A stretch of 64,000 bases of DNA. Source: Cyclina sinensis. Lineage: Eukaryota; Mollusca; Bivalvia; Venerida; Veneridae. The DNA lies in NCBI GenBank assembly GCA_012932295.1, contig JAAONU010000008.1, forward strand, positions 34,710,949 through 34,774,948. Reading direction: 5' to 3'. The notes beneath the pieces were generated by a model. That model was not told the origin of the DNA. It did no database searches and was given only the letters and a program-made list of their open reading frames with translations. Of this stretch, positions 7,991 through 63,430 are shown in pieces (position 1 is the stretch's first letter; every line of letters starts with the position of its first letter). A program made the position numbers and the translations under genes.

Positions 7991-8856
7991 CCAAAAAACC
8001 TCATAGTTCTTGTTTTTCGTTTAAAATAAATTTGAATTAGAATCCATCCATTTATCAGTCATTACATCCTTACAATATTATTTAGTCTTTTTGCTCCTAT
8101 CGGTTTTTTAAGAACAATACTAAAAACAGGTACATTCTTGGAAAATGGTACATCACAGTAAACCTAAATTTGGCAATTTTCTACATCATTTTGTTTGTGC
8201 TACAGTGTTTACATACTAATACTCCAATCTGTTCTTTCGGTCGTAATAACTGTAGTTTTCTTAGACAAATGGTTTCATTGTTTTCAATACATCATCGTTA
8301 CTAGTTAAGTTACAGCTGCATTTGATGCGATTCTTGAAATGAATCTTCTTATGATACCCCAAGCTATAAATTACACAGCTTCAGAACAAATACGCTTTTC
8401 ACATCCCCTTTCTCTGGAGTATGAAAAAAAGAAAGGACAAAAGTCTACTCGTAAAAAATAGATAAAAGCATTTATTATTGTTATTCCATCAGCGCACATC
8501 GACTTCAGTTGCTTAGGAATTTACTTATCTTTCTTACAATCAAAAACGTCCATATGTAAAATACTACCAACTAGTTGAAAAGATAACGAATACAGATTGG
8601 TTGATTTACAGTTTTTATATTTGCTAATGAGCAATTACTTTCCAAAATTAGTCAATCTTCTTCACCTCTAAGATTATTGCTCAGCTATGCCCTTTTTTTA
8701 CTACATCAACGTTTCAAATTATTTTATTACACTATTAAAAACTGTTAAAATATTACAGTGGATTACTTTTCAAACCTAAGACACCCTAACAAAAATTTGT
8801 ATATCAGAAATGGTTTGCCTGACCTCTTTTCTAACCAGATCAACGTGCCATGATAA
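7991..8856. other. Intergenic, no feature seen
   Basis: AT-rich single-copy-looking sequence between the probable poly(A) site of gene A and the 26-bp minisatellite. No exon, RNA gene or repeat was recognised. Confidence 0.4.
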
Positions 8857-10822
8857 AAAAGCAAGTTGTTCTGAACTGAAAACATCAAATTGTTCTTGAA
8901 CTGATAAAAAAAAATTGTTCTTCAACTGACAAAAAGGAAGTTGTTCTTGAACTGACAAAAAGTAAATTGTTCTTGAACAGACAAAAAAAAATTTCTTGAA
9001 CTGACAAAAAGCAAGTTGTTCTAGAACTGACAAAAAGCAAGTAGTTCTTGAACTAACAAAAAGCAAATTGTTCTTAAACTGACAAAAAGCAAGTTGTTCT
9101 TAAACAGACAATATTAAGCAAATTGTTTCTGAACTGACAAAAGTAAGTTTTCCTTGAACTGACAAAAAGCAAGTAGTTCTTGAACTGACAAAAAACAAGT
9201 TGTTCTTTAACTGACAAAAAGTAAATTGTTCTTAAACTGACACAAAGCAAGTTGTTCTTGAACCAACAAAAAGCAAGTTGTTCTTAAACTGACAAAAAGC
9301 AAGTTATTCTAGAGCTGACAAAAAGCAAGTAGTTCTTGAACTAACAAAAAGCAAATTGTGCTTAAACTGACAAAAAGCAAATTGTTCTTAAACTGACAAA
9401 AGTAAGTTTTTCTTGAACTGACAAAAAGCAAGTTGTTTTTGAACAGACAAAAAGCAAATTGTACTTGAACAGATAAAAAGTAAATTGTTCTAGAACTGAC
9501 AAAAAGCAAGTTGTTCTTAGACAAAAAGCAAATTGTTTTTGAACTGACAAAAAGTAAGTTGTCCTTGAACTGACAAAAAGCAAGTTGTTCTTGAATGGAT
9601 AAAAAGCGAGTTGTTTTTGAACTGACAAAAAGTAAGTTGTTCTTAAACTGACAAAAAGCAAGTTGTTCTTGAACAAACGATAAGCAAGTTGTTCTTGAAC
9701 AGACAAAAAGGAAATTGTACTTGAACAGATAAAAAGTAAATTGTTCTATAATTGACAAAAAGCAAGTTGTTCTTAAACAGACAAAAAGAAAATTGTTTTT
9801 GAACTGACAAAATGTAAGTTGTTCTTTAACTGACAAAAAGCAAGTTGTTCTTGAACCGACAAAAAGCAAGTTGTTCTTGAACTGACAAAACACAAATTGT
9901 TCTAGAACTGAAAAAAAACCAGTTGTTCTTGAACTGACAAAAAAAAGCAAATTGTTCTTAAACTGACAAAACACAAATTGTTCTAGAACTGACAAAAAAC
10001 CAGTTGTTCTTGAACTGACAAAAAAAGCAAATTGTTCTTAAAGAGACAAAAAGCAAGTTGTTCATGAACTGACAAAAAAAACAAGTTGTTCTTGAAATGA
10101 GAAAAAGCACGTTGTTCAGGAAGAACAAAAAAGAAGATGTTCTTGAACTGACAAAAAGAAGTTGTTCTGGAATTGACAAAAAAAATTGTTCTTGAACTGA
10201 CAAAAAGCAAACTGTTCTTAAACAGACAAAAAACAATTGTTATTGAATTGACAAAAAGCAAGCTGTCCTTGGAAAGACAAAAAGCAGGTTGTTCTTGAAC
10301 TGACAAAAAACAAAAATTTCTTCAATTGACAAAATGCAAGTTGCTCTTGAACAGAAAACAATGTTCTAGAACTGACAGAAAGCAGGTTGTTCTTTAACTA
10401 ACAAAAAGCAAATTGTTCTTAAATTGACAAAAGCAAGTTGTTCTTGATCTGACAAAAAGCAAGTTGTTCTTGGATAGACTAAAAGCAAGTTGTTCTAGGA
10501 ATGACAAAAAACAAATTGTTCTTGAACCTGACAAAAAGCCAGTTGTTCTTGAACTGACAAAAAGCAAGTTGTTCTGGAAATGACAAAAAGCAAGTTGTTC
10601 TGGAAATGACAAAAAGCAAATTGTTCTTGAACCGACAAAAAGCAAGTAATTTTTGAACTGACAAAAAGCAAGTTGTTCTTTAAATGACAAAAAGCAAGTT
10701 GTTCTTGAAATGACAAGAAGCAAATTGTTCTTAAACTGACAAAAAGCAAATTGTTCTAGAACTGAAAAAAGCAAGTTGTTGTAGATTTGACAAAAGCAAA
10801 TTGTTCTAGATTTAACAAAAAC
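8857..10822. repeat. 26-bp minisatellite, about 75 units
   Basis: Tandem repeat with a consensus near CAAGTTGTTCTTGAAC plus TGACAAAAAG (26 bp). Units vary by point changes and small indels. Because 26 is not a multiple of 3, the minus strand is open in several frames and yields repetitive pseudo-proteins (SSRTTCFLSVQEQ type); these are not genes. Most units contain TTCTTGAA or TTCTAGAA, the head-to-head core of a heat-shock element. Confidence 0.95.
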
Positions 10823-19952: not shown

Positions 19953-22900
19953 ATAAAAAAACGAGAAGACTAACTCTTTAACAATTTTTTGCAAATTTAT
20001 TCAAAATACCGTTGAAGTTTCCATCTCTAAACAATTGCCAAGCAGTTTTTGTTAAAAGTTTTATATTTAAGGTCGCCTTATTACCGCACTGTTTCCAACC
20101 CTTGAGAAGACCCCCCAGCTGGCCCGTTTGTAAAAAAAAGAAGAAAAGGGCTCATTTTTAAAGACTCTAAAACATTTTTTCAGCTCTTTTCATCTCGTAA
20201 CAGATACACAGTCAACCTTTCAATTTTCAATGGTCATGCAATATTGCGTAACAACTGATAACGAGTTCGCAACTTTAAAGCCGTGTATATTACACAATGT
20301 ACCGTATATTCGGTGGCACGGATTATCCGAGAGTTCTGATGCATAGTTTTCAAGCGTCTAGTAACCTTGACGTATTTGATAAAGTTGTTAAATGAGCGTC
20401 TGCTGACCATGATCAGTTGCCTGATGATATTGTGCAAACTCCAGTCGTAACAACTCGGCCTTTTCCGACAACTTCGTATAACGATATATTGAAGTCGCAC
20501 GAGGTGTTCCGAATGGTGCAAACTCCACACGGCGGTTACTTCCCTTCCATACTTTCAGTACAGTAATCACTGCCGACAGTCATGTCACGTGATGATGGTC
20601 GAAAGTAAATAAACAAAATTTTAAACTTTTTTCAAGTTACATTTTAAAAAAAAATCATTACAGCCAGGCATGTTTAATTCCAACTGTAACTAAACTAACC
20701 AGCTGAAATCCAGCTAAGGTTAACCCGTGTCTGCAGAGATCTTTCCAAAGAATGATGGGTAGATCACTGCGGGGAGATTGGATAATGTGATGACGGTGTA
20801 ATTTGTTATGCCAATTAATTTATTGATAAATTATTTGTTTTAGAGGACTTTATAAATATAAAATGAAAAAAGTTTTTTGCTTTAGTTGAACATTTCAAAG
20901 AATACCAGTATATTTCTTTTAAATTCTCACACAAATTTCATTATATTTTTATGCCTAAAATGCGCCAAAATGAGCCATTTACTCCACCTTTTTAGAAAAT
21001 TTTCTTGGGAGAGGCCCCCCAAACCCCCTACGGAAGGGGGTTATCCCCCTTCGTACCTTCCCCCAAGCCCCCCCCCCCCCAGTCAGAAATTTCTGGATCC
21101 GGCCCTGGAAGTATACCTCTTTTAAAAATCTTTTCACAATTAGTTGGCAAAAATATAAGAAATGTCATATAATCTCGTTATACGATTCGATGAAAGCGAC
21201 GAAAAACCTATAAAAATACACAAAAAAGTTATTGTCAGGGTCAGTGTAATTAAAAGGGTAAGACAAATTGTCATCGTTAAGAACTGATTCCGGGTTTTAG
21301 CTCGAGTCCTTGATTGTGTAGGCAAGGAGCTGTTTCTATCTGCTAATTTTCCAAAAAGACAGCAAAGCAAGTAGATATGTTGAGATTATTGATTTTCCCT
21401 TGTTTGCGCGCCTAAAAAAACAACATCACATCACTAAAGAGTAGGGGCGCAGCGGAGTTACTAAGGTGCAGTTCGTAGGAATTATTTATTTACTTATCTG
21501 TTTATTTTTATTTTATTTTTTTTTTGGGGTGGGGGGGGGGGGGGGAGGTGGGGTGGGGACACTGCTCATCTTTGAGTGCCTCTATTTTATTTCACCCTTT
21601 AAAGTAAAACATCAAGTAATAAACCAGAATTTTAATGGGCTTTACAAACTGGCTGAATTTAACTGATCGAAACAATGCAACTTGCAAAAGACACAATAAC
21701 CTAAACAAATTTAACATTTGAAAAAAAAAACAACAATAACAACAAAAACATTTGCAGTACTAAGCATGAATTTACTGTTTACAATAATTTATTACACCAC
21801 GTGTCACTATAGTATTGAATTTGACACTCTGAATATTGAATAAGACATAACTGGACTTACCAACTTCACAGTTCTTGCCAGTCCAACCTGTATTACATGA
21901 GCATCTGTAACCACCGAGCAAATTTATGCAGCGAGCTCCATTCTTACACGGACTGCTGTTACATGAAACAGCATCTGGAATCAATAGTATTGAAACAACC
22001 TTGAACGATTTTATTTTACGAAAACAATTGTAGGGACAAGGTGGCTTTTAAATTGATATGTTATGTTTGATTCCTACCGTATTATAATTATTATCATTAA
22101 TAGTATTGCACTAGAAGTGAAACAATTTAAAAGGAACAAAATAGCAAATAGAGGTAGCTTATCACTTTTAAACATAATCAAATATTTAAAAACAAACAAC
22201 AGCAACAAAAACCCATTAATAATCAGTCGGTGCATTCAGGTCTAAGACATGTATTTTAAATCTGGACGTTAAGTAGGTTAACTATTACTGAAATTTTCAT
22301 GATACATTTGTTTTAGTTTAGACTCATTTATATTACATCGATTGCGATACAAGTTCTTACAAATTAGATTCATCAGGCTCGATGACTGCTTCCTGGGTTC
22401 CGTACCAGTATTCGCGTAGCGTGGAGTAATGTGAAGATCGTGAGAGAATCTCGCCTCTGACGGATCCGGAGCCCTGCGCTCTACACCTGGACAACTGTGC
22501 CTATACATTTTTCTTTGGTGTGTATGACATTCCAATAAACTGGACCAAGTTTGTTTACTTACACAGACAAACAGGTGCCGATCCTGACCAATAACCGTCT
22601 TTGGTGCAAGTTCGGACGGCTTTCGAGGAGTCCACCATTTTGTAGCCACCATAACAAGAATATCTCACTCGACCGCCATATGTGTAGTCGCTACCAGAAA
22701 AACTACCGTACGAAATCGAGCTCGGCCGGCCACAGGTAACAACTGTCAAAGAAAAACAACATACACGTATAAGTTTCTACAGGGACAAGTTAAAAGAATT
22801 TCAAAATTGCCGATGTAATCAAGAATATTGGGAGGTACAGACATCGGTAGCTTTTTTACAAATAAAATACATCAGAAATGCTAACACAATAAATCACAAA

Positions 22901-23388
22901 TTTATAATAAAGAACGGCTGTTCTATTGTTCTCATTTTCACGATTAAAATAGTCCAACTTAATTAAAGAATTAATAGGAAAAATTCTTGTTCTGAAATAT
23001 CTTACATGCAATACTTACTTTGACTACAGCAAGACCCTTTGTACCTGTCCGGACAATAACAATACCCGTATAGATACGTTCCACCGTTGTAGCAATGGGT
23101 ATTACAGCTTCTAGAATCGTCAAAACCTAATCTTGCGATATCATAATCTAATCCACAGTCCTCCATACATAACCTTGCACTGTGCGCAAGATCTGCCTTG
23201 CAGCAAAAAGCCCGGTCTCGATGCTTGGTTCCACCAGCGCAAGAACTGCTACAGTCAGACCATGATCGCCAAGGAAGCCATTCACATCTATCAATATTTG
23301 CCGGGCAGTCGTCTCCCTCAACTAAAGACGGAAGAAGCTCTAAAAAAATCAAGCTGAACAAAAAAACATTTCGCTTACGATGCATCAT
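17816..23388 (-). CDS. Gene B: secreted TSP1-sushi-EGF-HYR-sushi protein
   Basis: Six exons join in one frame on the minus strand: 23388-23019, 22742-22563, 21974-21861, 19246-19001, 18606-18403, 17985-17816 (1284 nt, 427 residues plus stop). Order: signal peptide, TSP1, Cys-rich/EGF-like, sushi, EGF, HYR, sushi, and half of the cysteine domain also found in gene A. Every intron is phase 1. No membrane segment follows, so the product should be secreted. The start is one of three in-frame ATGs; 23388 was chosen because it leaves a short basic n-region, and an ATG at 23409 would add seven residues. An in-frame TAA lies upstream of both. The closest known architecture is that of SVEP1-like/complement-type extracellular proteins. 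Abrupt termination is the odd feature. Confidence 0.85.
18403..18606 (-). CDS. Gene B exon 5: second sushi domain
   Basis: Encodes PFPCKKMDPPANGITICNG, then YSQICVFTCKTNYTLPPG and YVCGASGNWLPNKPVLQC. Cysteines and the conserved W before P-x-x-x-x-C fit sushi. Acceptor TTTCAG, donor GTAAGT. Confidence 0.92.
19001..19246 (-). CDS. Gene B exon 4: HYR domain
   Basis: Translation starts DIQPPVVSGCPADRN, then WTEPNIYDPHGTSV, then FPWGEYTVSYNGVKPSNG and ends AECKFKISIKR. P-P-x(3)-x-C-P...W-x-x-P...F-P-x-G-x-Y-x-V-x-Y...C-x-F-x-I is the hyalin (HYR) pattern. Acceptor TTTTGCAG, donor GTAGGT, phase 1-1. HYR usually stands beside sushi domains, as here. Confidence 0.93.
19922..19951 (+). repeat. Poly(A) run of about 30 bases
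   Basis: Uninterrupted A tract in a gene B intron. It could be the tail of an old retroposed insertion, but no element body was recognised upstream. Confidence 0.7.
20990..21112 (-). repeat. C-rich DNA-transposon-like terminus
   Basis: Ends with 'agtcagaaatttctggatccggccctgg'. Read on the minus strand this is CCAGGGCCGGATCCAGAAA, which resembles the CAGGGGCGGATCCAG terminal repeats of some hAT/P-like elements. It is preceded by poly-C and 'ggggttatccccc'. The other terminus was not found. Confidence 0.4.
21861..21974 (-). CDS. Gene B exon 3: EGF domain
   Basis: Encodes CNSSPCKNGARC, INLLGGYRCSC and NTGWTGKNCEVG. Six cysteines in EGF order with G-x-R-C...Y-x-C-x-C...G-W-x-G-x-x-C. Acceptor TTCCAG, donor GTAAGT, phase 1-1. 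Confidence 0.95.
22310..22503 (-). mobile_element. tRNA-derived SINE, family 1, in gene B intron 2
   Basis: Minus-strand copy of the element at 31722-31945. It shares 'gattctctcacgatcttcac', 'ggaagcagtcatcgag', 'ttgtaagaacttgtatcgca' and the tail 'aaatgagtctaaac'. The head has the A-box-like 'gtccaggtgtagagcg', but about 20 bases with the B box are missing between 'ggatccg' and 'tcagaggcg'. Confidence 0.8.
22563..22742 (-). CDS. Gene B exon 2: sushi/CCP domain
   Basis: Translation starts IVTCGRPSSISYGSFSG, contains YGGRVRYSCYGGYKM and ends C-T-K-D-G-Y-W-S-G-S-A-P-V-C-L. Four cysteines, GxxVxYSCxxGY and the late W are textbook sushi features. Phase 1-1. Confidence 0.94.
23019..23388 (-). CDS. 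Gene B exon 1: signal peptide, TSP1, Cys-rich segment
   Basis: Encodes MMHRKR, a hydrophobic stretch NVFLFSLIFLELLPSLVEG with likely cleavage before DDCP, then WLPWRSWSDCSSSCAGG (W-x-x-W-x-x-W-x-x-C of TSP1) with R-x-R-x-F-C-C, and finally a cysteine cluster CNTHCYNGG...CYCPDRYKGSCC that is EGF-like. The donor GTAAGT follows the first base of a codon (phase 1). Confidence 0.88.
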
Positions 23389-23409
23389 ATCCTTTTCCTT
23401 TTTTTTCAT

Positions 23410-24802
23410 TAACAATCGGACATAATTTTAGTGTTTTTAATTTTCAAGGATATAAATGTCAATTTTGCATTTGAAATTAATTGCATAAATTTTGTAACAC
23501 ATATCTCTCACTTTAAAGAGATGTAACAAAACATGATAGTGGAATATCCAGTTGAATAAACACAGAGCTACAAAGCAGCGAATGGAGACATTCCAAGGCG
23601 AACTCACAATTTTAACCAGGCTTTCTTATAAGATACTCTAATTATTTATCTCTGACCTGCTTTTCCATTGCTTTCGTGTTATGTTATTTGTACACATGGG
23701 TTGATTAAAAAGTATCAATCAAAAGATATCTCTGACATATTGTAACAGAATATTAAAAACCAGGATCTGTTTTTAGAAGTTATCATTTAAGTGTTTAAAA
23801 ACGCAGAACTTTGATGAATTTTATCTACAGCTGCGTTTAGAAACGATTTAAAATGCTCGTTGTTATGATACAGATTCTTGCTTACGAAAAAGAAGACAAA
23901 TGATCAAACTTGACTGTTCCTCTTGATCGTATCGACCTCACTAGCAATGAACAAACAATTCCTGAGTTGCCTGCTAACAAAAAATAAAGATATCTTGTGT
24001 TGTAAAAAATGCATCATCCTGTACCACAATGTTTTCTATCTAAACAAATTTGCTATCTATTGCGTACTATGACAAGAAAATTCGGCAATTTTTATAGCTT
24101 AATCAACACACCGTTCAACCGCTACTTCGAACGGCCGTTGATCCGCGAAAGACAGCAGGCTGTGTACATGTCGATATTCCGATGCAGGTGAATATTTGTG
24201 CCTGATTTTTATATGTTCCCACAATATCTCGACATGAACAGTATTCTGGGTGATTCTCTATTCTCTAAGGACCCCTCTGTCGAAATTATGGTAAAGTCAG
24301 TGCTTTCAATAGCGTGAAATTGCTCAGAAACAGTGCAAACTTTTCACTAAATAAGACATTTATTGAATCGGCCGTAGCTATTCTTTCTTATTAGCAAAAA
24401 CTAAAATACTTGAAGTATGTCAATAAACAGTTTGTTCGTTTTTCTTTATTCAAACCAAACTACAGCTTCCAGTTCGCATCTTTTTGCAAAGGTATTATTT
24501 ACTCATGAAATGGACATATAGTGAGGATTTCGGTTTTTACAACCGTCGTCAATAGAGAAGTATTGATAATAATGAATGCCTTTAGATCAGTCGATATTAT
24601 AATGACAACGACGGTCAAATAAAAAAAAGAAAAATAAATTACGACTTTTAGTGAACTCTTTATGTTAAAAAAAACGAAAAAGTATTGACAATTTTTTTAT
24701 TTGATTGCCATATTTTTTCGGCAGAGGTTATGCTATTGTTATGTTAACATAACATTTGATATATATATTTGTCTGATCTTTAGACACAGGCCTAAAATTA
24801 AA
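23410..24802. other. Upstream of gene B, no feature seen
   Basis: Should contain the promoter of gene B, but no TATA or initiator could be assigned with confidence. AT-rich, no exon recognised. Confidence 0.35.
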
Positions 24803-25045
24803 GGTCCCTGTGACCTAGTGGTTAAAGCGTCCGCTTGGAGGTCGAAGGTTTGAGTCCCTTTAGGGGTTTGTTCTATTGTGGCCAGTTTGTGAACCGCCGG
24901 CTAGCTAAATAATGCTTTTTGATTGCCTGTCCACCTGGCGTCTGGCATATAGAGTAGGAAATCATAAGCCCGTTAGGCTGGCAATTACAGTACGAGTGAC
25001 ACCATGATAAAAAGCACTTCACTTCACTTTTACTTTTATAACAAA
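24803..25045 (+). mobile_element. tRNA-derived SINE, family 2
   Basis: The head has A box 'tgacctagtggttaaagcg' and B box 'ggtttgagtccc' at tRNA spacing. The body runs through 'ccagtttgtgaaccgccggc' and 'gcccgttaggctggcaatt', and the 3' end is 'aaaaagcacttcacttcac'. It does not fold as an intact tRNA, so it is a SINE head and not a tRNA gene. Confidence 0.75.
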
Positions 25046-31721: not shown

Positions 31722-31945
31722 CTTGAGGGACCGTGGTCCAGGAGTAGAGCGAAGGACTCCAGATCCGAGGGTCGCGGGTTCGAATCCCGTCAGAGGCGAG
31801 ATTCTATCACGATCTTCACATTCTTCCACGCTGCGCGAATACTGGTATGGACCCCAGGAAGCAGTCATCGAGCGTGATGAATCTAAGTTGTAAGAACTTG
31901 TATCGCAATCGATGTAAAATAAATGAGTCTAAACTAAACTATAAA
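31722..31945 (+). mobile_element. tRNA-derived SINE, family 1, best copy
   Basis: The head has A-box-like 'gtggtccaggagtagagcg' and a good B box 'gggttcgaatccc' inside a 5-bp T-arm. The body is 'gaggcgagattctatcacg...ggaagcagtcatcgagcgtg...ttgtaagaacttgtatcg' and the tail 'aaatgagtctaaactaaac'. Related partial copies are at 22310-22503 and 35194-35298. Confidence 0.85.
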
Positions 31946-32844
31946 CTATCAAAGAATAAGATTATAAAATATCTGATGTTCTTTTTAGCAATTTGCGTTT
32001 ATTATTCGAACATATTTTAAAACAATAGGGCGATAATGGCCCTAGAGCGCTCACCTAAGTACACCTGCTAAGGAAAACAAGTGTCGTGTGATATATTTAT
32101 CATGCAATAATGACAGCACAGCCTTTACATTCGACTTTGCTTATGTCAAGCGTTGTATTAAACGGGAGCACAATCTACAAACCGTATAGGAAGGGAAGCA
32201 ACCCTCGATAAAATTATTAATGTAATGGTAAACAGAACAAAAGTTTTGTTCGCTTAAGATTTGTACAATGTTTAGTGACTAGGTCAATATTGCTTATCAT
32301 GTCCAGTAAGAATAAGAACCACCTGTCCGTTCAAATGTCCGTTTCTTCTTATAAGTTTAAACATTTTCGGCAAGTTGGATATTTGTCAGTTCTTATATGT
32401 AGTAAGTGGCATAAAATTTCACACAACTGTACTATATACTAAACCGTTTGTCGCCTGTGATTTCAAAAAAGTGAAGTTGGATGAAGCTAGGTTACTACAA
32501 TTACTCCAAAACATCAAAGAAATGTTTAATTACATTCAAGCCATGAGAAATCCAATTTTTCATTATTTATCTCACATTGCGATTTATTTTGTATTTTGCA
32601 CTTGTATTCATATATTAATTACTAGACGTGTACTTAATATTCCATATATGTGAACATATTATTATTTACCTAATACATATTGAGATATGGAAAATGAGTA
32701 CGATACTTAAAACTTTCGGCCGTATTCGGTAGACATTCATACTCATTGTGAAAAAATATTCAAAATAAATGTTTAAGTAACCTCAATATTTGATTCTGGC
32801 AGTAATAAGTTCAAAATTGAATATTTCTAGATCTAAATTTCTAG
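31946..32844. other. Intergenic, no feature seen
   Basis: AT-rich. A 92-codon plus-strand frame at 32375-32653 has a hydrophobic end but no recognised domain. Confidence 0.35.
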
Positions 32845-33838: not shown

Positions 33839-34819
33839 TCAATACCGGGTATGGCCACTTTGAGCATTGAGTACTGCCTGTCATCGTTTGTGCAGAGAAC
33901 CGACAAGTGTGTTGATTACTTCCTTTGGAATGTTATTTCACTCTGGATTAAAACTTGTGTTAGTTCATTGATGTTCGGCGGAGGAATATGGCGACGTCCA
34001 ACACTCTGGTCCAAATTATACCACAGTCATTCGATTGGATTCAGATCTGGACTTTTGGCGGACCAATCATTAATAAACGCAATATTTTTCGTCCTGAGGA
34101 AATTCACAGTATCGCTTGCTGTATGGCTTGCGACATTATCCTGTTGAAACAGTGATATTGGCATTATTTTGAAACTGTAGGATGACGTGCCTTGCAAGAA
34201 TCGCATCTTTGTAGCGTTGGGAATTCAAATTCGATCACGAGGAGAGGTGTGCGATAACCAAAGTTCAATGCCTGCCCAGACCAAGACGGAACCTCCCCCC
34301 CCCCCCCCCCCCCCCGAAACGATCTTGTTCAAGTACACATCAATCGGCATAACGTTAATTTCTTCTACGGTATACACGAATCCTGCCATCACTTAATCTT
34401 GACTCGTCGGAGAAAAAATTCGCTATTCCACTGTTGCCTTATCCAGCGATGGTGTGTACGTGCTCAATTAGAATGATTTACGCGGTGACGTCCCGTCATT
34501 ACACAGCCAACATAAGGACGACGTACACGTAGACCACCCTCGCGCAAGCGATTACGTACAGTTTTGGCAGATTGGCGGATATTCGGTTGTTTTGTGTACA
34601 AAGGGTGTTAGGAGCAGTGGCAGTTTGAAAACGATTGCGTAGGTGTGTGTTCATGATGTAGCGGTCTTGACCAGGCGTCGTGACACGCTGACGTCTACTA
34701 CGTGGTAAATCTTTCCTTTGACCTGTTGCTTGGAAACGTTGCCTAAGGTTTCGAATAGAACAACTGTAGCAGAGGTATAATACGGCACTTGTACTCCCTT
34801 GCCTATCAGCTAGCTTTTA

Positions 34820-34873
34820 TGGCGACGTGGTAGAGTGTCCCCTTAGCAATTGAAGGTACCCGAGTTCAAACCC
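34820..34873 (+). promoter_or_regulatory. tRNA-like Pol III A and B boxes in 5' LTR
   Basis: TGGCGACGTGGTAGAGTG (34820-34837) resembles a tRNA D-arm/A box, and GAGTTCAAACCC (34862-34873) a B box. The gap is shorter than in many tRNAs but compatible with Pol III recognition. The flanks do not form an acceptor stem, so it is not a tRNA gene. Confidence 0.65.
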
Positions 34874-35073
34874 AGCTCGGAGCAGGTGGATTTTTCCGGG
34901 TTACATTTGGCGCCCAACGTAAACAACTCACGAGTTTAGATGTGATGGCACCCTTAGAAAGACCCACAGACATTCATTACTCCAAGAATTCGAGAACGAA
35001 TTCTGAGGAGGGGGTGTATGTAGCAGAGGTACAATACAGCACGTGTACTCCCTTGCCTATCAGCTAGCTTTTA

Positions 35074-35127
35074 TGGCGACGTGCTAGAGTGTCCGCTTAG
35101 CAATTGAAGGTACCCGAGTTCAAACCC
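35074..35127 (+). promoter_or_regulatory. tRNA-like Pol III A and B boxes in 3' LTR
   Basis: Same boxes as in the 5' LTR: TGGCGACGTGCTAGAGTG (35074-35091, one change) and GAGTTCAAACCC (35116-35127, identical). Confidence 0.65.
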
Positions 35128-35193
35128 AGCTCGGGGCAGGTGGATTTTTCCGGGTAACACAACTAGAACTGTCAAAAAGCCTAGCAACTTCAT

Positions 35194-35298
35194 TAGTTTA
35201 GACTCATTTATTTTACATCGATTGCGATACAAGTTCTTACAACTTAGATTCATCACGCTCGATGATTGCTTCCTGATTTCCATACTAGTGTTCGCGCA
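35194..35298 (-). mobile_element. 5'-truncated SINE, family 1, inside the Tc1 pseudogene
   Basis: The last ~105 bp of the SINE seen at 31722-31945, reversed, from the 'gagtctaaac' tail to 'gctgcgcgaa'. It is flanked by GCAACTTCAT (35184-35193) and GCAACCTCAT (35299-35308), a 10-bp target duplication with one change. The tRNA head is missing, as expected for LINE-driven 5' truncation. Confidence 0.85.
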
Positions 35299-35368
35299 GC
35301 AACCTCATGCGTCGCCATACAAGCATTCCAGGGGCATGTTTACGTAAATTTGGTGAAATTCTAGGCAT

Positions 35369-37429
35369 ATCAAATAGAAAAAAAACTTGATTTTTTCAAC
35401 GTTTTTTTTCTTATTGACAACAAAGTCTATAAAATCAGAGAGAAAGGTTTGATTTTATAAGCACTCATTATACTGGTCCTAGCATACACCAGAAGTTGTT
35501 GTTTTTGTTGTTGTTGTTGTTGTGTAATCGGTACAATTGAGTTATAAATGGGTTTATTTGACGCATAATCGTTCACCCTACCATATGTAGAGCATTTGAC
35601 ATGTTGATTTTTTGTTCATTACATTAAAAAGTATGCACATAACTCGGGAGTTTCTTGTTTTTATGTTCAGTAAAAAGAAGTAAAAGTATAAAACGGTAAA
35701 ACGTTTTATATACAGGTTAGAGCAAATTTTCTTTGCATTGTCTGAAAACCTGTATGCCGTATCTGAATTTTACTCTCACTGTAATCACTCAAAAACTGGC
35801 CACTTCTTACACTCTATTGTTAAGAAGCAATGGACCTTTGCAAAACAAAGTTATGTGAAAGAAAAAATAACCGAATCGTCAGACCAATATTTACGTTCAT
35901 AAAAGATAGTATTCGAAATTTGTGTTGCATTTTTGTACTTAGAGGAGGATTATTATTTGGATGTAAGTGATATAATTGTTTAAGTTTGATACTATTCTTA
36001 CATGAAGACCCACATACAAAATAATCCTTTTTAAAACATGTCTCAATCACAAATTATAAAAAAAAAAACTTCTTATATGTTATTATTGTTCGTAATTATT
36101 TACTTTTACAAAGTTGATAAGAAAAAAATATTTTTATTGCATGATTGATAAATATGAAGATCAATAAACTGAAAATGTATACTAGTACCCTAGTCATTTA
36201 ATTGGTGAAAATAACACAGTATTTTCGTCAAGATATCTTTCCATATTTCGTGTTCAACAATTTTTTTTTCATAATAGAAGAAGCCACAGACTCAGATACA
36301 ATTTCAAGGTTCATTAAAAATGCCCAGCATTCTCAATCATTGTTTTAAAATTCACGAATGTGGTACATACTTAAAACATCTTTGCTCCATTATTCTGTAA
36401 GAAGTAGAAGTTTCATAAATAAGAAATATATTCAAAATAAATATTTCTAGAAATCAATCGCTTTTTATGTCCGACAAGGAAGACAGGGAATAAACCATAT
36501 ATAGACCGTTCCATAATTGATAAATTGACCGCCGCCATTATGAAAGTCACCTGACCGTCCGCCATTAAAAGGCTGTGATACTTAAGTTCCGTATAGATCT
36601 GTATAACTTTAGTATTTTGTATGTTTTATTCCAGACTTGATCATATTATTATTTTGATTTATTTAACACATGAAAGAATGTAAAAAAAGACCATGGACTG
36701 TTCAAATTGTATTTGCATATTAGTGATATTACCAATGATTCATACTTACCGCTACTGGCGACACATTTCATTGGATTAACGATGTCATGTGATTAAGCTG
36801 ATCTTACAGGTCGTACGTCGTACGTAGCTTGAGTTGTATAAACCACAAAAATAATATTGAAAATACTTGTTTCCTTTTCAAAAGTTGAAACTATGATTTC
36901 AATTATTTGAACAACCCTGAAAGCTCACAAAATTATAAATCTTGCTCATTAACCGCATGCTCACTGTCTTTTATCTCAAACTTGTTTTGTGCTTTGACGC
37001 AGTTTGAAAAATTAGATTCTACTTTACAATAAATATTCATTAATTAGCACTTCATAAATTATCAGACAGACAGACAGTTAGTTTTCTTTATTATACCCAA
37101 TGTAATCTTTAACAACATGGGGATACAATAAAAAGGAAAAGGCAAACGTATAACTTCAATTAATACCTGAAAAAGTAAAGAATTTAATATTGATATTTTT
37201 TAAAGTTTTAACTTTGGGGGAATCTTCGTGTTGAAAAAATCATAAAGTAATATATTAACAGTTATAGAAACAGTATTTATAAAATTTCTGAGACAGTGTT
37301 AAGTTATACATAAAAAATTGATAACAGTTATACAGACAGCTTGAAGTTATAATAGTAACTTGAATTGCCATTATCTTTGTAGTAAGGAGTAGTAAACTTA
37401 GAGCGTAGACTGAACTGTCTCTTGTCAAG
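35369..37429. other. Intergenic, nothing firm
   Basis: AT-rich. Contains a short (GTT)n near 35497-35522 and 'cagacagacagtt...tttattatacccaatg' near 37067-37110, which resembles a LINE 3' tail. No exon recognised. Confidence 0.35.
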
Positions 37430-40400
37430 TAAAGGTATTATATACAAATACAGACTTTGAATACTCTAAATATGGTCTGTAGAGGTATATAATACAAATA
37501 CAGACAGTGAATATACTATATATAGTCTGTAGAGGTATTATATACAAATACAGACTGTGAATATACTATATATAGTCTGTAGAGGTATAATATACAAATA
37601 CAGACTTTGAATACTCTAAATATGGTCTGTAGAGGTATATAATACAAATACAGACAGTGAATATACTATATATAGTCTGTAGAGGTATTATATACAAATA
37701 CAGACTGTGAATATACTATATATAGTCTGTAGAGGTATAATATACAAACACAGACTGTGAATAAACTACATATAGTCTGTAGAGGTATTATATACAAATA
37801 CAGACTGTGAATATACTATATATAGTCTGTAGAGGTATAATATACAAATACAGACTTTGAATACTCTAAATATGGTCTGTAGAGGTATATAATACAAATA
37901 CAGACAGTGAATATACTATATATAGTCTGTAGAGGTATTATATACAAATACAGACTGTGAATATACTATATATAGTCTGTAGAGGTATAATATACAAACA
38001 CAGACTGTGAATAAACTACATATAGTCTGTAGAGGTATTATATACAAATACAGACTGTGAATATACTATATATAGTCTGTAGAGGTATAATATACAAATA
38101 CAGATTGTGAATATACTATATATAGTCTGTAGAGTTATTATCTACAAATACAGATTGTAAATATACCATATATAGTCTGTAGAGGTATAATATACAAATA
38201 CAGACTGTAAATATACCATAAATAGTCTATACAGGTATAATATACAAATACAGACAGTGAATATACTATATATAGTCTGTAGAGGTATAATATACAAATA
38301 CAGACTGTGAATATACTATATATAGTCTGTAGAGGTATTATATACAAATACAGACTGTAAATATACCATATATGGTCTGTAGAGGTATTATATACAAAAA
38401 CAGACTGTGAATATACTATATATAGTCTGTAGAGGTAAATAATACAGACAGTGAATATACTTTATATAGTCTGTAGAGGTATTATATACAAATGCAGACA
38501 GTGAATATACTATATATAGTCTGTAAAGGTATTATATACAAATACAGACAGTGAATATACCATATATAGTCTGTAGAGGTATTATATACAAAGACAGACT
38601 GTGAATATACAAAATATAGTCTGTAGAAGTATATAATACAAATACAGACAGTGAATATACTATATACAGTCTGTAGAGGTATAATATACAAATACAGACT
38701 GTAAATATACCATGTTTTGTCTGTAGATGTATAATATACAAATACAGACTGTAAATATACCATGTAAAGTCTGTAGAGGTATAATATACAAATACAGACT
38801 GTAAATATACCATGTATAGTCTGTAGAGGTATAATATACAAAAACAGACTGTGAATATACTATATATAGTCTGTAGAGGTATAAAAACATACACAGACTG
38901 TGAATATACTATATATAGTCAGTAGAGGTATAATATACATACACAGACTGTGAATATACTATATTTAGTCTGTAGAGGTATAATATACATACACAGACTG
39001 TGAATATACTATATATAGTCTGTAGAGGTATAATATACAAATACAGACTGTGAATATACTATATATAGTCTGTAGAGGTATAATATACAAATACAGACTG
39101 TAAATATACCATGTATAGTCTGAAGAGGTATAATATACAAATACAGACTGTAAATATACCATGTATAGTCTGTAGAGGTATAATATACAAATACAGACTG
39201 TGAATATACTATATATAGTCTGTTGAGGTATAATATACATACACAGACTGTGAATATACTATATATAGTCTGTAGAGGTATAATATACAAATACAGATGT
39301 GATTATACTATATATAGTCTGTAGAGGTATAATGTACAAATACAGATGTGGATATACTATATATAGTCTGTAGAGGTATAATATCAAAATATAGCCTGTA
39401 AATTTACTATTTATAGTCTGTAGAGGTATAATATACATATACAGACTGTGAATATACTATATATAGTCTGTAGAGGTATAATGTACATACACAGACTGTG
39501 AATATACTATATATAGTCTGTAAAGGTATAATATACAAATACAGATGTGATTATACTATATATAGTCTGTAGAGGTATAATATCAAAATAAAGCCTGTAA
39601 ATTTACTATTTATAGTCTGTAGAGGTATTATATACAAAGACAGACTGTGACTATACTATATATAGTCTGTAGAGGTATAATGTACATACACAGACTGTGA
39701 ATATACTATATATAGTCTGTAAAGGTATAATATACAAATACAGATGTGATTATACTATATATAGTCTGTAGAGGTATAATATACATTCACAGACTGTGAA
39801 TATACTATATATAGTCTGTAGAGGTATAATGTACAAATACAGACTGTGAATATACTATATACAGTCTGTAGAGGTATAATGTACATACACAGACTGTGAA
39901 TATACTATATATAGTCTGTAGAGGTATTATATACAATTACAGACTGTGAATATACTATATATAGTATGTGGTGGTATTATATACAAATACAGACTGTCAA
40001 TATACTTTATATAGCCTGTAATGTAATTATATAAAAATTCAGACTGTGAATATACTATAAATAGTCTGTAAAGGTATTATATACAAAGAAAGACCGTGAA
40101 TATACCATATATAGTCTGTAGAGGTAATATATACAAAGACAGACTGTCAATATACTATATATAGCCTGTAACGGTATTATATACAAAGACAGACTGTGAA
40201 TATAATATATATAGTCTGTAGAGGTATTATATACAAATGCAGACTGTGAATATACTATATATAGTCTGTAGAGGTATTATATACAAATACAGACAGTGAA
40301 TATACTATATATAGTCTGTAGAGGTATAATATACATATACAGACTGTGAATATACTATATATAGTCTGTAGAGGTATTATATACAAAGACAGACTGTGAA

Positions 40401-41237
40401 TATACTATATATAGTCTGCTGAGGTATAATATACAAATGCAGACTGTGAATATATAATATATAGTCTGTAGATGTATTATATACAAAGACAGACTGTGAA
40501 TATACTATATATAGTCTGTAGAGGTATTATATACAAATGCAGACTGTGAATATATAATATATAGTCTGTTGAGGTATAATATACAAATGCAGACTGTGAA
40601 TATATAATATATAGTCTGTTGAGGTATAATATACAAATGCAGACTGTGAATATATAATATATAGTCTGTTGAGGTATAATATACAAATGCAGACTGTGAA
40701 TATATAATATATAGTCTGTTGAGATATAATATACAAATGCAGACTGTGAATATATAATATATAGTCTGTTGAGGTATAATATACAAATGCAGACTGTGAA
40801 TATATAATATATAGTCTGTTGAGGTATAATATACAAATGCAGACTGTGAATATATAATATATAGTCTGTAGAGGTATTATATACAAAGACAGACTGTGAA
40901 TATACTATATATAGTCTGTAGAGGTATTATATACAAATGCAGACTGTGAATATACTATATATAGTCTGTTGAGGTATAATATACAAATGCAGACTGTGAA
41001 TATATAATATATAGTCTGTAGAGGTATTATATACAAAGACAGACTGTGAATATACTATATATAGTCTGTAGAGGTATTATATACAAAAACAGGCTGTGAA
41101 TACACTATATATAGCCTGTGAAGGTATTCTATACAAAAACAGACTGTGAATATACTATATAATATTATAGTCTGTAGAGTTATTATATACAAATACAGAC
41201 TGTGAATATAATATATTTAGTCTGTAGAGGTATTATA
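37430..41237. repeat. 50-bp satellite array, about 76 units
   Basis: Consensus near TATAGTCTGTAGAGGTATTA + TATACAAATACAGACTGTGA + ATATACTATA. Each unit holds ACAGACT and AGTCTGT about 17 bases apart, able to pair as a 7-bp stem. Variants form higher-order blocks: a 'ctttgaatactctaaatatgg' variant recurs at about 37455, 37605 and 37855, and a homogeneous 'aatgcagactgtgaatatataatatatagtctgttgagg' block covers about 40535-40860. Minus-strand open frames here (YIIPLQTIYSIFTVCICI type) are by-products of the array. Confidence 0.97.
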
Positions 41238-41242
41238 TTAAA

Positions 41243-58134: not shown

Positions 58135-58345
58135 CTTGGCTCTGTGGCACAGTGGTGTAGAATGCCACCTCATATTTTACTGACCGAAAGGTCATGGGTT
58201 CGAATCCTGGTTATGTCAAAACTTTATTTTTTCAGTTTTCATTGTGTATATAAGCATATTATTGTGTTTTTTTCCATAGTATATCAACTTTCTTTAAATT
58301 TTAAGAAAAAAAAAAATCAGCTACATTCTGTGAGTCAGTCGCTTT
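58135..58345 (+). mobile_element. tRNA-derived SINE, family 3
   Basis: The head has A box 'tggcacagtggtgtagaatg' and B box 'gggttcgaatcctgg'. The body is AT-rich and ends near 'gtgagtcagtcgctttaaag'. No acceptor-stem complement, so not a tRNA gene. Confidence 0.75.
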
Positions 58346-61299: not shown

Positions 61300-63430
61300 G
61301 AAGATAATGGTATAATTCAGATACTCATGAAAGAAAGACTTAATGTTTTAATTCAGAAACTAATGGAACAAAGACTTCAATAATGTTAATATTCAAACAC
61401 TAATGGAACAAAGACTTCAATAATGTTAATATTCAAACACTAATGGAACAAAGACTTCAGTAACTTTATAATCATGCAGATACTATAATGAAAGAAGGCT
61501 GAGATAATGTTATAATTTTGTGATACTTATGAAGGAAAGACTTTATAATGTTATAATTCAGATAATAATGAAACAAAGACTTAAATAATTTTATAATGCA
61601 GATACTAATGAAAGAAGACTTAGGTTATGTTATAATTCAGATACTCATGAAACAAAGACTTCAATAATGGTATATTTCAGGTAAAAATGAAACAAAGACT
61701 TCAATAATGGTATATTTCAGGTAAAAATGAAACAAAGACTTCAATAATGGTATATTTCAGGTAAAAATGAAACAAAGACTTCAATAATGGTATATTTCAG
61801 GTAAAAATTAAACAAAGAAATAATGGTATATTTCAGGTAAAAATGAAACAAAGATTTTAATAATGGTATATTTCAGGTAAAAATGAAACAAAGACTTCAA
61901 TAATGGTATATTTCAGGTAAAAATTAAACAAAGAAATAATGGTATATTTCAGGTAAAAATTAAACAAAGACTTAAATAATGGTATATTTCAGGTAAAAAT
62001 TAAACAAAGACTTCAATAATGGTATATTTCAGGTAAAAATTAAAGACTTCAATAATGGTATATTTCAGGTAAAAATTAAACAAAGACTTCAATAATGGTA
62101 TATTTCATGTAAAAATGAAACAAAGACTTAAATAATGGTATATTTCAGGTAAAAATTAAACAAAGACTTCAATAATGGTATATTTCAGGTAAAAATTAAA
62201 GACTTCAATAATGGTATATTTCAGGTAAAAATTAAACAAAGACTTCAATAATGGTATATTTCAGGTAAAAATTAAAGACTTCAATAATGGTATATTTCAG
62301 GTAAAAATGAAACAAAGACTTCAATAATGGTATATTTCAGGTAAAAATTAAACAAAGAAATAATGGTATATTTCAGGTAAAAATTAAACAAAGACTTAAA
62401 TAATGGTATATTTCAGGTAAAAATTAAACAAAGACTTAAATAATGGTATATTTCAGGTAAAAATTAAACAAAGACTTAAATAATGGTATATTTCAGGTAA
62501 AAATTAAAGACTTCCATAATGGTATATTTCAGGTAAAAATTAAACAAAGACTTCAATAATGGTATATTTCAGGTAAAAATTAAACAAAGAAATAATGGTA
62601 TATTTCAGGTAAAAATTAAACAAAGAAATACTGGTATATTTCAGGTAAAAATTAAACAAAGAAATAATGGTATATTTCATGTAAAAATGAAACAAAGACT
62701 TAAATAATGGTATATTTCAGGTAAAAATGAAACAAAGACTTAAATAATGGTATATTTCAGGTAAAAATGAAACAAAGACTTAAATAATGGTATATTTCAG
62801 GTAAAAATGAAACAAAGACTTAAATAACTGATAATAATAACTGAAGACACAGGTTATGTTGTAATTCAGAAAGTAATGAAAGAAATACTTGAATAATGTT
62901 ATAATTGAGATTCTAATGAAAAATATATGCAGGTACTAATGAAAGAATACTGAGATAATGTTGTAAATGTGATTCTCATGAAGAAAAGACTTAATATTAT
63001 TATAATTCAGATACTAATAAAAAAGACTTTAATAATTTTATAATGCAGATCCTAATTAAAGAGACTTTATAGAATGTAATAATTCAGATACTGTTGAAAG
63101 AAGACTGAGATAATGTAATAATTCAGATACTATTGAAACAAAGACTTAAATAATGTTGTAATTCAGAAACTAATGAAAGAATTAAAGACTTAAATAATGT
63201 TAAATTCAGATTCTCACAAAACAAAACTTATTGTTGTTATTCAGCGACTGATTAAAGAAAGACTTTAATAATATAACTCTGATACTATTGAAACAAAGAC
63301 TTAATTAAATAACTTAATTTTGCAGATACTAATGAAAGAAGACTTTTATAATGTTAAAGTTCAGATATTTATGAAACAAAGACTTAAATAATTTTATAAT
63401 GCAGATATACTAATGAAAGAAAGACTTAGT
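61300..63430. repeat. 40-bp tandem repeat, array 2 with homogenised core
   Basis: Same family as array 1. The core 61661-62825 is made of near-identical 40, 36 or 35-bp units 'aggtaaaaatgaaacaaaga' + 'cttcaataatggtatatttc'; the shorter units lack 'aaaca' or 'ctt'-type pieces. TTTCAGGTAAAAAT occurs 28 times in the core. Both flanks are diverged, as usual for arrays homogenised from the middle. Confidence 0.95.

Follow-up and report, generated by a model that had tools for sequence, protein, structure and literature searches.

A 395-bp miniature LTR element with tRNA-like promoter motifs that resembles the Helenus TRIMs of bivalves

The 64,000-nucleotide stretch of DNA analysed here (the window) contains a single, real miniature LTR element of 395 bp at positions 34765-35159. 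At a probability of roughly 0.82, we read it from its sequence as one copy of a Helenus-type TRIM (TRIMp3), promoted by Pol III and copied in trans by a Ty3/gypsy element. This figure is limited because the A box is unspecific and because the Pol III step competes with a Pol II alternative. The initial annotation had proposed a miniature LTR element with Pol III boxes of tRNA type in its LTRs. As a structural reading, this agrees with the features that are testable from sequence, the boxes being imperfect; the interpretation as a whole, its claim of novelty included, is partly supported.

The observation is sound, but it is not new, as this kind of element was published as Helenus in 2024: TRIMs with tRNA-derived sequence in their LTRs, a primer site and a purine tract (Kojima, 2024; PMC10886601). 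It had been thought at the outset that no tRNA-type counterpart of Cassandra was known in molluscs. This fails, since 51 Helenus families are described from pteriomorph bivalves of five orders, with oysters, mussels and scallops included (PMC10886601). In the literature from 2023 on, we found no work on Helenus TRIMs beyond that of Kojima, which, judged by title, was also the only relevant work on TRIMp3. For bivalve TRIMs, the same paper and the one describing biv-TRIM rank top among the matches listed, and the whole word ‘trim’ is absent from the available portion of a survey of bivalve transposons (PMC10294476). For the field, the element amounts to at most one more Helenus copy or family. 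Reading from the letters alone was enough to pick out a rare, already published type of element and to place its ends.

Anatomy and insertion site of the element

The element consists of two LTRs around a short centre and interrupts a decayed transposase copy, with the following parts:

33900-35197 (limits approximate), minus strand: host site, a decayed transposase copy of Tc1/Tc3 type that the element interrupts (PF01498 match)
34761-34764, no strand: left target-site duplication, CAAC, letters identical to 35160-35163
34765-34905, plus strand: 5' LTR, 141 bp, TGT...ACA (direct-repeat search, BLAST)
34906-35018, plus strand: internal region, 113 bp, maximum coding length 37 aa
34908-34920, plus strand: primer-binding site TGGCGCCCAACGT, tRNA-Lys1,2 (CTT) type (motif scan, 13-base tRNA match)
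34985-35004, plus strand: hairpin directly next to the purine run, with a perfect stem of 8 bp and a loop of 4 nt (stem search and fold)
35005-35014, plus strand: polypurine tract GAGGAGGGGG, then TGTA before the 3' LTR (read from the letters)
35019-35159, plus strand: 3' LTR, 141 bp (direct-repeat search, BLAST)
35160-35163, no strand: right target-site duplication, CAAC, letters identical to 34761-34764

The two LTRs are identical at 134 of 141 bases (95%; BLAST E = 5.5e-61), start 254 bases apart, and are the sole direct-repeat family in 34000-36000 at a minimum length of 14 nt. Three transitions and four transversions make up the seven differing sites (K2P 0.051). Repeat search and BLAST thereby bear out the 395-bp element with two 141-bp direct repeats of the initial annotation, and the ACA at which it had ended the LTRs is found in the letters as part of TGT...ACA. 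The G+C content of the LTRs and centre is 46-51%, compared with 32% for the window. No second copy of the element occurs within the window, where the remaining LTR matches are 12-15 nt long (BLAST, E up to 1), and no open frame of at least 120 aa overlaps the element. Exact patterns from the LTRs had no match in viral contigs (three patterns) or in prokaryote genome contigs (one pattern), results of low weight for an animal element.

The element ends in TGT...ACA and is flanked on either side by CAAC, in this one copy. A 5-bp duplication, ACAAC, is formally possible with an element one base shorter; the 4-bp duplication is favoured because both LTRs close with ACA, opposite TGT. Removal of the element together with one CAAC had been said to restore the reading frame of the Tc1 host, and this had been taken as proof that the ends are exact. 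We reject it as such proof: the 399 bases removed make up 133 whole codons, and the frame is kept whether the insert is there or not, so that the restored frame is weak evidence for the ends. The host itself was assigned to its type by a match to PF01498 (HTH_Tnp_Tc3_2; E = 2e-6), obtained with a read-through in which two frames were joined; its 28.4 bits lie below the curated cut-off of 31.5. Translation of the empty site gives a weak match to PF13518 (E = 0.11, below the cut-off), which crosses the junction without net gap (residues 3-37 against profile positions 17-51). A pattern search for relatives of the host transposase in viral contigs matched 87 stretches, none of which was confirmed. 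When the PDB was searched with the N-terminal part of the transposase, the one match was to a nanobody (E = 0.65), which we take as chance.

Two bases past the 5' LTR lies the primer-site 12-mer TGGCGCCCAACG (34908-34919); with the next base included, the match to the end of tRNA-Lys is 13 bases long. A primer-site-like motif had been noted at just this distance, and it can now be assigned to the tRNA-Lys1,2 type. At up to one mismatch, the 12-mer is present at this one place in the window and in none of 100 shuffles. In the available portion of one source, the tRNA-Lys1,2 primer site is printed as TGGCGCCCAACGTGGGGC, of which TGGCGCCCAACG is the beginning (PMC1084362); in that of another, a nearly identical string is the primer site of a foamy virus (PMC3386198). 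At the other end of the centre, the purine run previously placed ahead of the second repeat is present as GAGGAGGGGG, 10 purines that end 4 bases upstream of the 3' LTR. The intervening TGTA (35015-35018) repeats the first four bases of the LTR; it may have come from slippage or from an unusual plus-strand priming point. When the centre was shuffled 2000 times by mononucleotides, a stem comparable to the 8-bp hairpin arose in 10 cases, and the centre as a whole folds slightly better than its shuffles (z -1.62; 9 of 200 at least as good).

Several other repeats lie in the window. Three of them, at 31725-31950 (plus strand), 22312-22502 (minus) and 35193-35300 (minus), belong to a SINE-like family whose head is tRNA-like and whose tail is shared; the last of these is a tail only, adjoining the host transposase and separated from the element by 33 bases. 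Identity to the 31725 copy is 94% both for 22312-22463 (152 nt) and for 35193-35300 (108 nt). An exact-pattern scan of viral contigs with one pattern from the neighbouring SINE gave 0 matches. Two more SINE-like stretches, 24811-24860 and 58137-58210 (both plus strand), have A and B boxes at tRNA spacing; their likeness to the LTR is not above that of shuffles. Tandem arrays occupy 37429-41238 (3.8 kb; 50-bp unit, about 76 copies, 89% matches), 8856-10821 (2 kb; 26-bp unit, about 76 copies, with 9309-10037 left open on the minus strand as a frame of 242 aa) and 61304-62836 (nested, with periods of 40, 76 and 116 bp). A 141-aa open frame at 23002-23427 (minus strand) encodes a thrombospondin type 1 domain (22.2 bits; Pfam cut-off 21.6).

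tRNA-like promoter signals in the LTRs

The consensus for the A box is TRGYNNARNNGG and that for the B box is GGTTCRANYCC. Measured against these, and against tRNA-Lys-TTT, the LTRs contain the following signals, all on the plus strand:

34811-34822: A-box-like, first candidate, TAGCTTTTATGG (2 mismatches to TRGYNNARNNGG; fits TRGCY and YGG of Helenus)
34820-34831: A-box-like, second candidate, TGGCGACGTGGT (2 mismatches; inside the tRNA-Lys-TTT alignment)
34819-34880: 5' LTR, stretch resembling tRNA-Lys(TTT) (score reached by 2 of 1000 mononucleotide shuffles)
34863-34873: B-box-like, 5' LTR, AGTTCAAACCC (1 mismatch to GGTTCRANYCC)
34891-34895: T5 run, Pol III terminator-like, 5' LTR (letters)
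35065-35076: A-box-like, 3' LTR, TAGCTTTTATGG (2 mismatches)
35073-35135: 3' LTR, stretch resembling tRNA-Lys(TTT) (score reached by 1 of 1000 mononucleotide shuffles)
35117-35127: B-box-like, 3' LTR, AGTTCAAACCC (1 mismatch)
35145-35149: T5 run, 3' LTR (letters)

Both LTRs carry an A box with 2 mismatches and a B box with 1 mismatch at tRNA spacing, as the initial annotation had claimed, though in imperfect form. The A box is not specific, as at 2 mismatches it can be placed 6 times in the 5' LTR and 3 times in the 3' LTR; two and one of these placements, respectively, have the tRNA spacing to the B box. The second candidate, TGGCGACGTGGT, exceeds 2 mismatches in the 3' LTR. The A box of Helenus includes TRGCY and YGG parts (PMC10886601). 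The B box starts with AGTTC rather than GGTTC. Within the same limits, the plus strand of the window has 9 such pairs, these LTRs accounting for 3, and the minus strand has 4; the box motif alone is therefore not rare here.

These imperfections leave room for a second reading, the strongest of the alternatives although itself unlikely, in which the element is an ordinary TRIM transcribed by Pol II and the likeness to A and B boxes is a relic or a coincidence. The 5' LTR has TATAATA at LTR positions 12-18, where the 3' LTR has TACAATA, and the T runs inside the LTRs would hinder Pol III. No tRNA was called in the window by ARAGORN, and Rfam gave no tRNA match at the element at E values up to 10. 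A recognisable tRNA gene is rejected on these two negatives; the LTR sequence is better described as promoter-like, a decayed tRNA. Against the Pol II reading, dinucleotide shuffling of the 5' LTR produced paired boxes at tRNA spacing with 2 and 1 mismatches in 20 of 5000 cases (320 of 5000 when 2 and 2 were allowed), and the tRNA-Lys-TTT alignment covers about 60 bases in both LTRs. LTR positions 55-117 are collinear with animal tRNA-Lys-TTT, with six one-base gaps. The same comparison with tRNA-Lys-CTT gave no standout, as 358 and 432 of 1000 shuffles were equally good. Folding of the LTRs is no better than that of shuffles (z 0.40 and 0.88; 1.15 for the tRNA-like part). Finally, a tRNA-derived stretch in the LTRs is common to published Helenus elements of several phyla (PMC10886601), which also counts against coincidence in this one.

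Transcription and copying

On the favoured reading, that of a Helenus-type TRIM, we infer from its motifs that the element may use Pol III; by Kojima's statement, Pol III transcription of Helenus has not been validated (PMC10886601). Pol III would start near or slightly upstream of the A box in the 5' LTR, read through the T5 of this LTR and stop at that of the 3' LTR, for a predicted RNA of 338-355 nt (three start points tried). Proteins of a Ty3/gypsy element would package this RNA, tRNA-Lys would prime its reverse transcription, and the enzymes of the Gypsy partner would integrate the copy with a 4-bp duplication. In line with Kojima's proposal, the tRNA-like part itself probably derives from a SINE that landed in the LTR of a TRIM ancestor (PMC10886601).

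The terminator-like runs bear directly on this scheme. Both LTRs have TTTT at LTR positions 51-54 and T5 at 127-131, which would tend to halt Pol III early. Because a T5 run follows the promoter in both LTRs, a full-length RNA would need read-through; the product predicted without it, from the same start points, is 84-101 nt long and, ending at the 5' LTR T5, could not be a full template. The main text of Kojima has no word on terminators in Helenus (‘terminat’ appears 2 times, for Cassandra, and ‘tttt’ 0 times; PMC10886601). With a T5 in both LTRs, it can be tested concretely how an LTR element driven by Pol III escapes stopping in its own 5' LTR. A different use of the same signals, which we consider improbable, is that promoter and T5 terminator make either LTR a Pol III unit complete in itself, yielding mainly a short, LTR-only RNA of about 84-101 nt. 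This RNA, tRNA-Lys-like and next to a tRNA-Lys primer site, could serve as a decoy or recruiter for the reverse transcription complex of the partner. Full-length RNA would then arise by read-through only.

Comparison with known systems

tRNA-headed SINEs share A and B boxes with the element, and the initial annotation had itself raised a dimeric SINE as the outcome that would displace an LTR element. A dimeric or tandem SINE would account for the tRNA-like boxes in each unit, and SINE-like stretches do exist elsewhere in the window. However, neither unit has a 3' tail, and the duplication, at 4 bp, is short; the TG...CA ends, the primer site two bases past the first repeat and the purine tract before the second are all anatomy of an LTR element. 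We consequently reject this reading as very improbable. Comparison of the LTR with the three SINE heads of the window gave a likeness not above that of shuffles (52 to 900 of 1000 equally good), and an origin of the LTR from these heads is rejected as well.

Equally remote is a copy of biv-TRIM (Satovic et al., 2019), an LTR element of bivalves that is likewise small and non-coding and whose inner domain contains inverted repeats. In the available portion of its description, biv-TRIM has repeats of 202-218 bp and an inner domain of 77-80 bp (141 and 113 bp here), the purine tract GGGGAGA in most copies (GAGGAGGGGG here), no clear primer site (tRNA-Lys type here), and a segment, TGATCCCAAAGGAC, conserved in all its species but one (PMC6934838). 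As TGATCCCAAAGGAC is absent from the element at up to 3 mismatches, biv-TRIM is rejected on this and on the lengths, a comparison made by published description.

Cassandra of plants is, according to the available portion of one source, also a non-coding TRIM with a Pol III promoter and terminator inside its LTRs; it differs in that its promoter is of the 5S rRNA type (PMC7215508). The ends of its RNA share 18 bp, as far as the text consulted describes them (PMC10886601), compared with a repeated RNA part of about 84-101 nt here if the T5 is the end.

The closest likeness is to Helenus. Like its members, the element has two LTRs around a short non-coding centre, here of 113 bp and with no frame of at least 120 aa, and a tRNA-derived LTR stretch with boxes A and B, present here imperfectly. 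Its primer site is complementary to a tRNA, here over 13 bases and of tRNA-Lys1,2 type; the primers of bivalve Helenus include tRNA-Lys, and the primer sites of animal Helenus resemble those of Gypsy elements only (PMC10886601). A polypurine tract precedes the 3' LTR, here with four intervening bases, and CAAC, in one copy, corresponds to the 4-bp duplications of animal Helenus (PMC10886601). The length of 395 bp falls within the published range of 311-1263 bp (PMC10886601). Should the host lie outside Pteriomorphia, the host distribution published for molluscan Helenus would widen. The B box is AGTTC here, whereas GGTTC is given as conserved in Helenus (PMC10886601); compared by published description, this is no defining difference. 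The tRNA-Lys-TTT that aligns with both LTRs is the same tRNA type with which Kojima aligned molluscan Helenus, using that of Aplysia (PMC10886601, legend to Fig. 2d).
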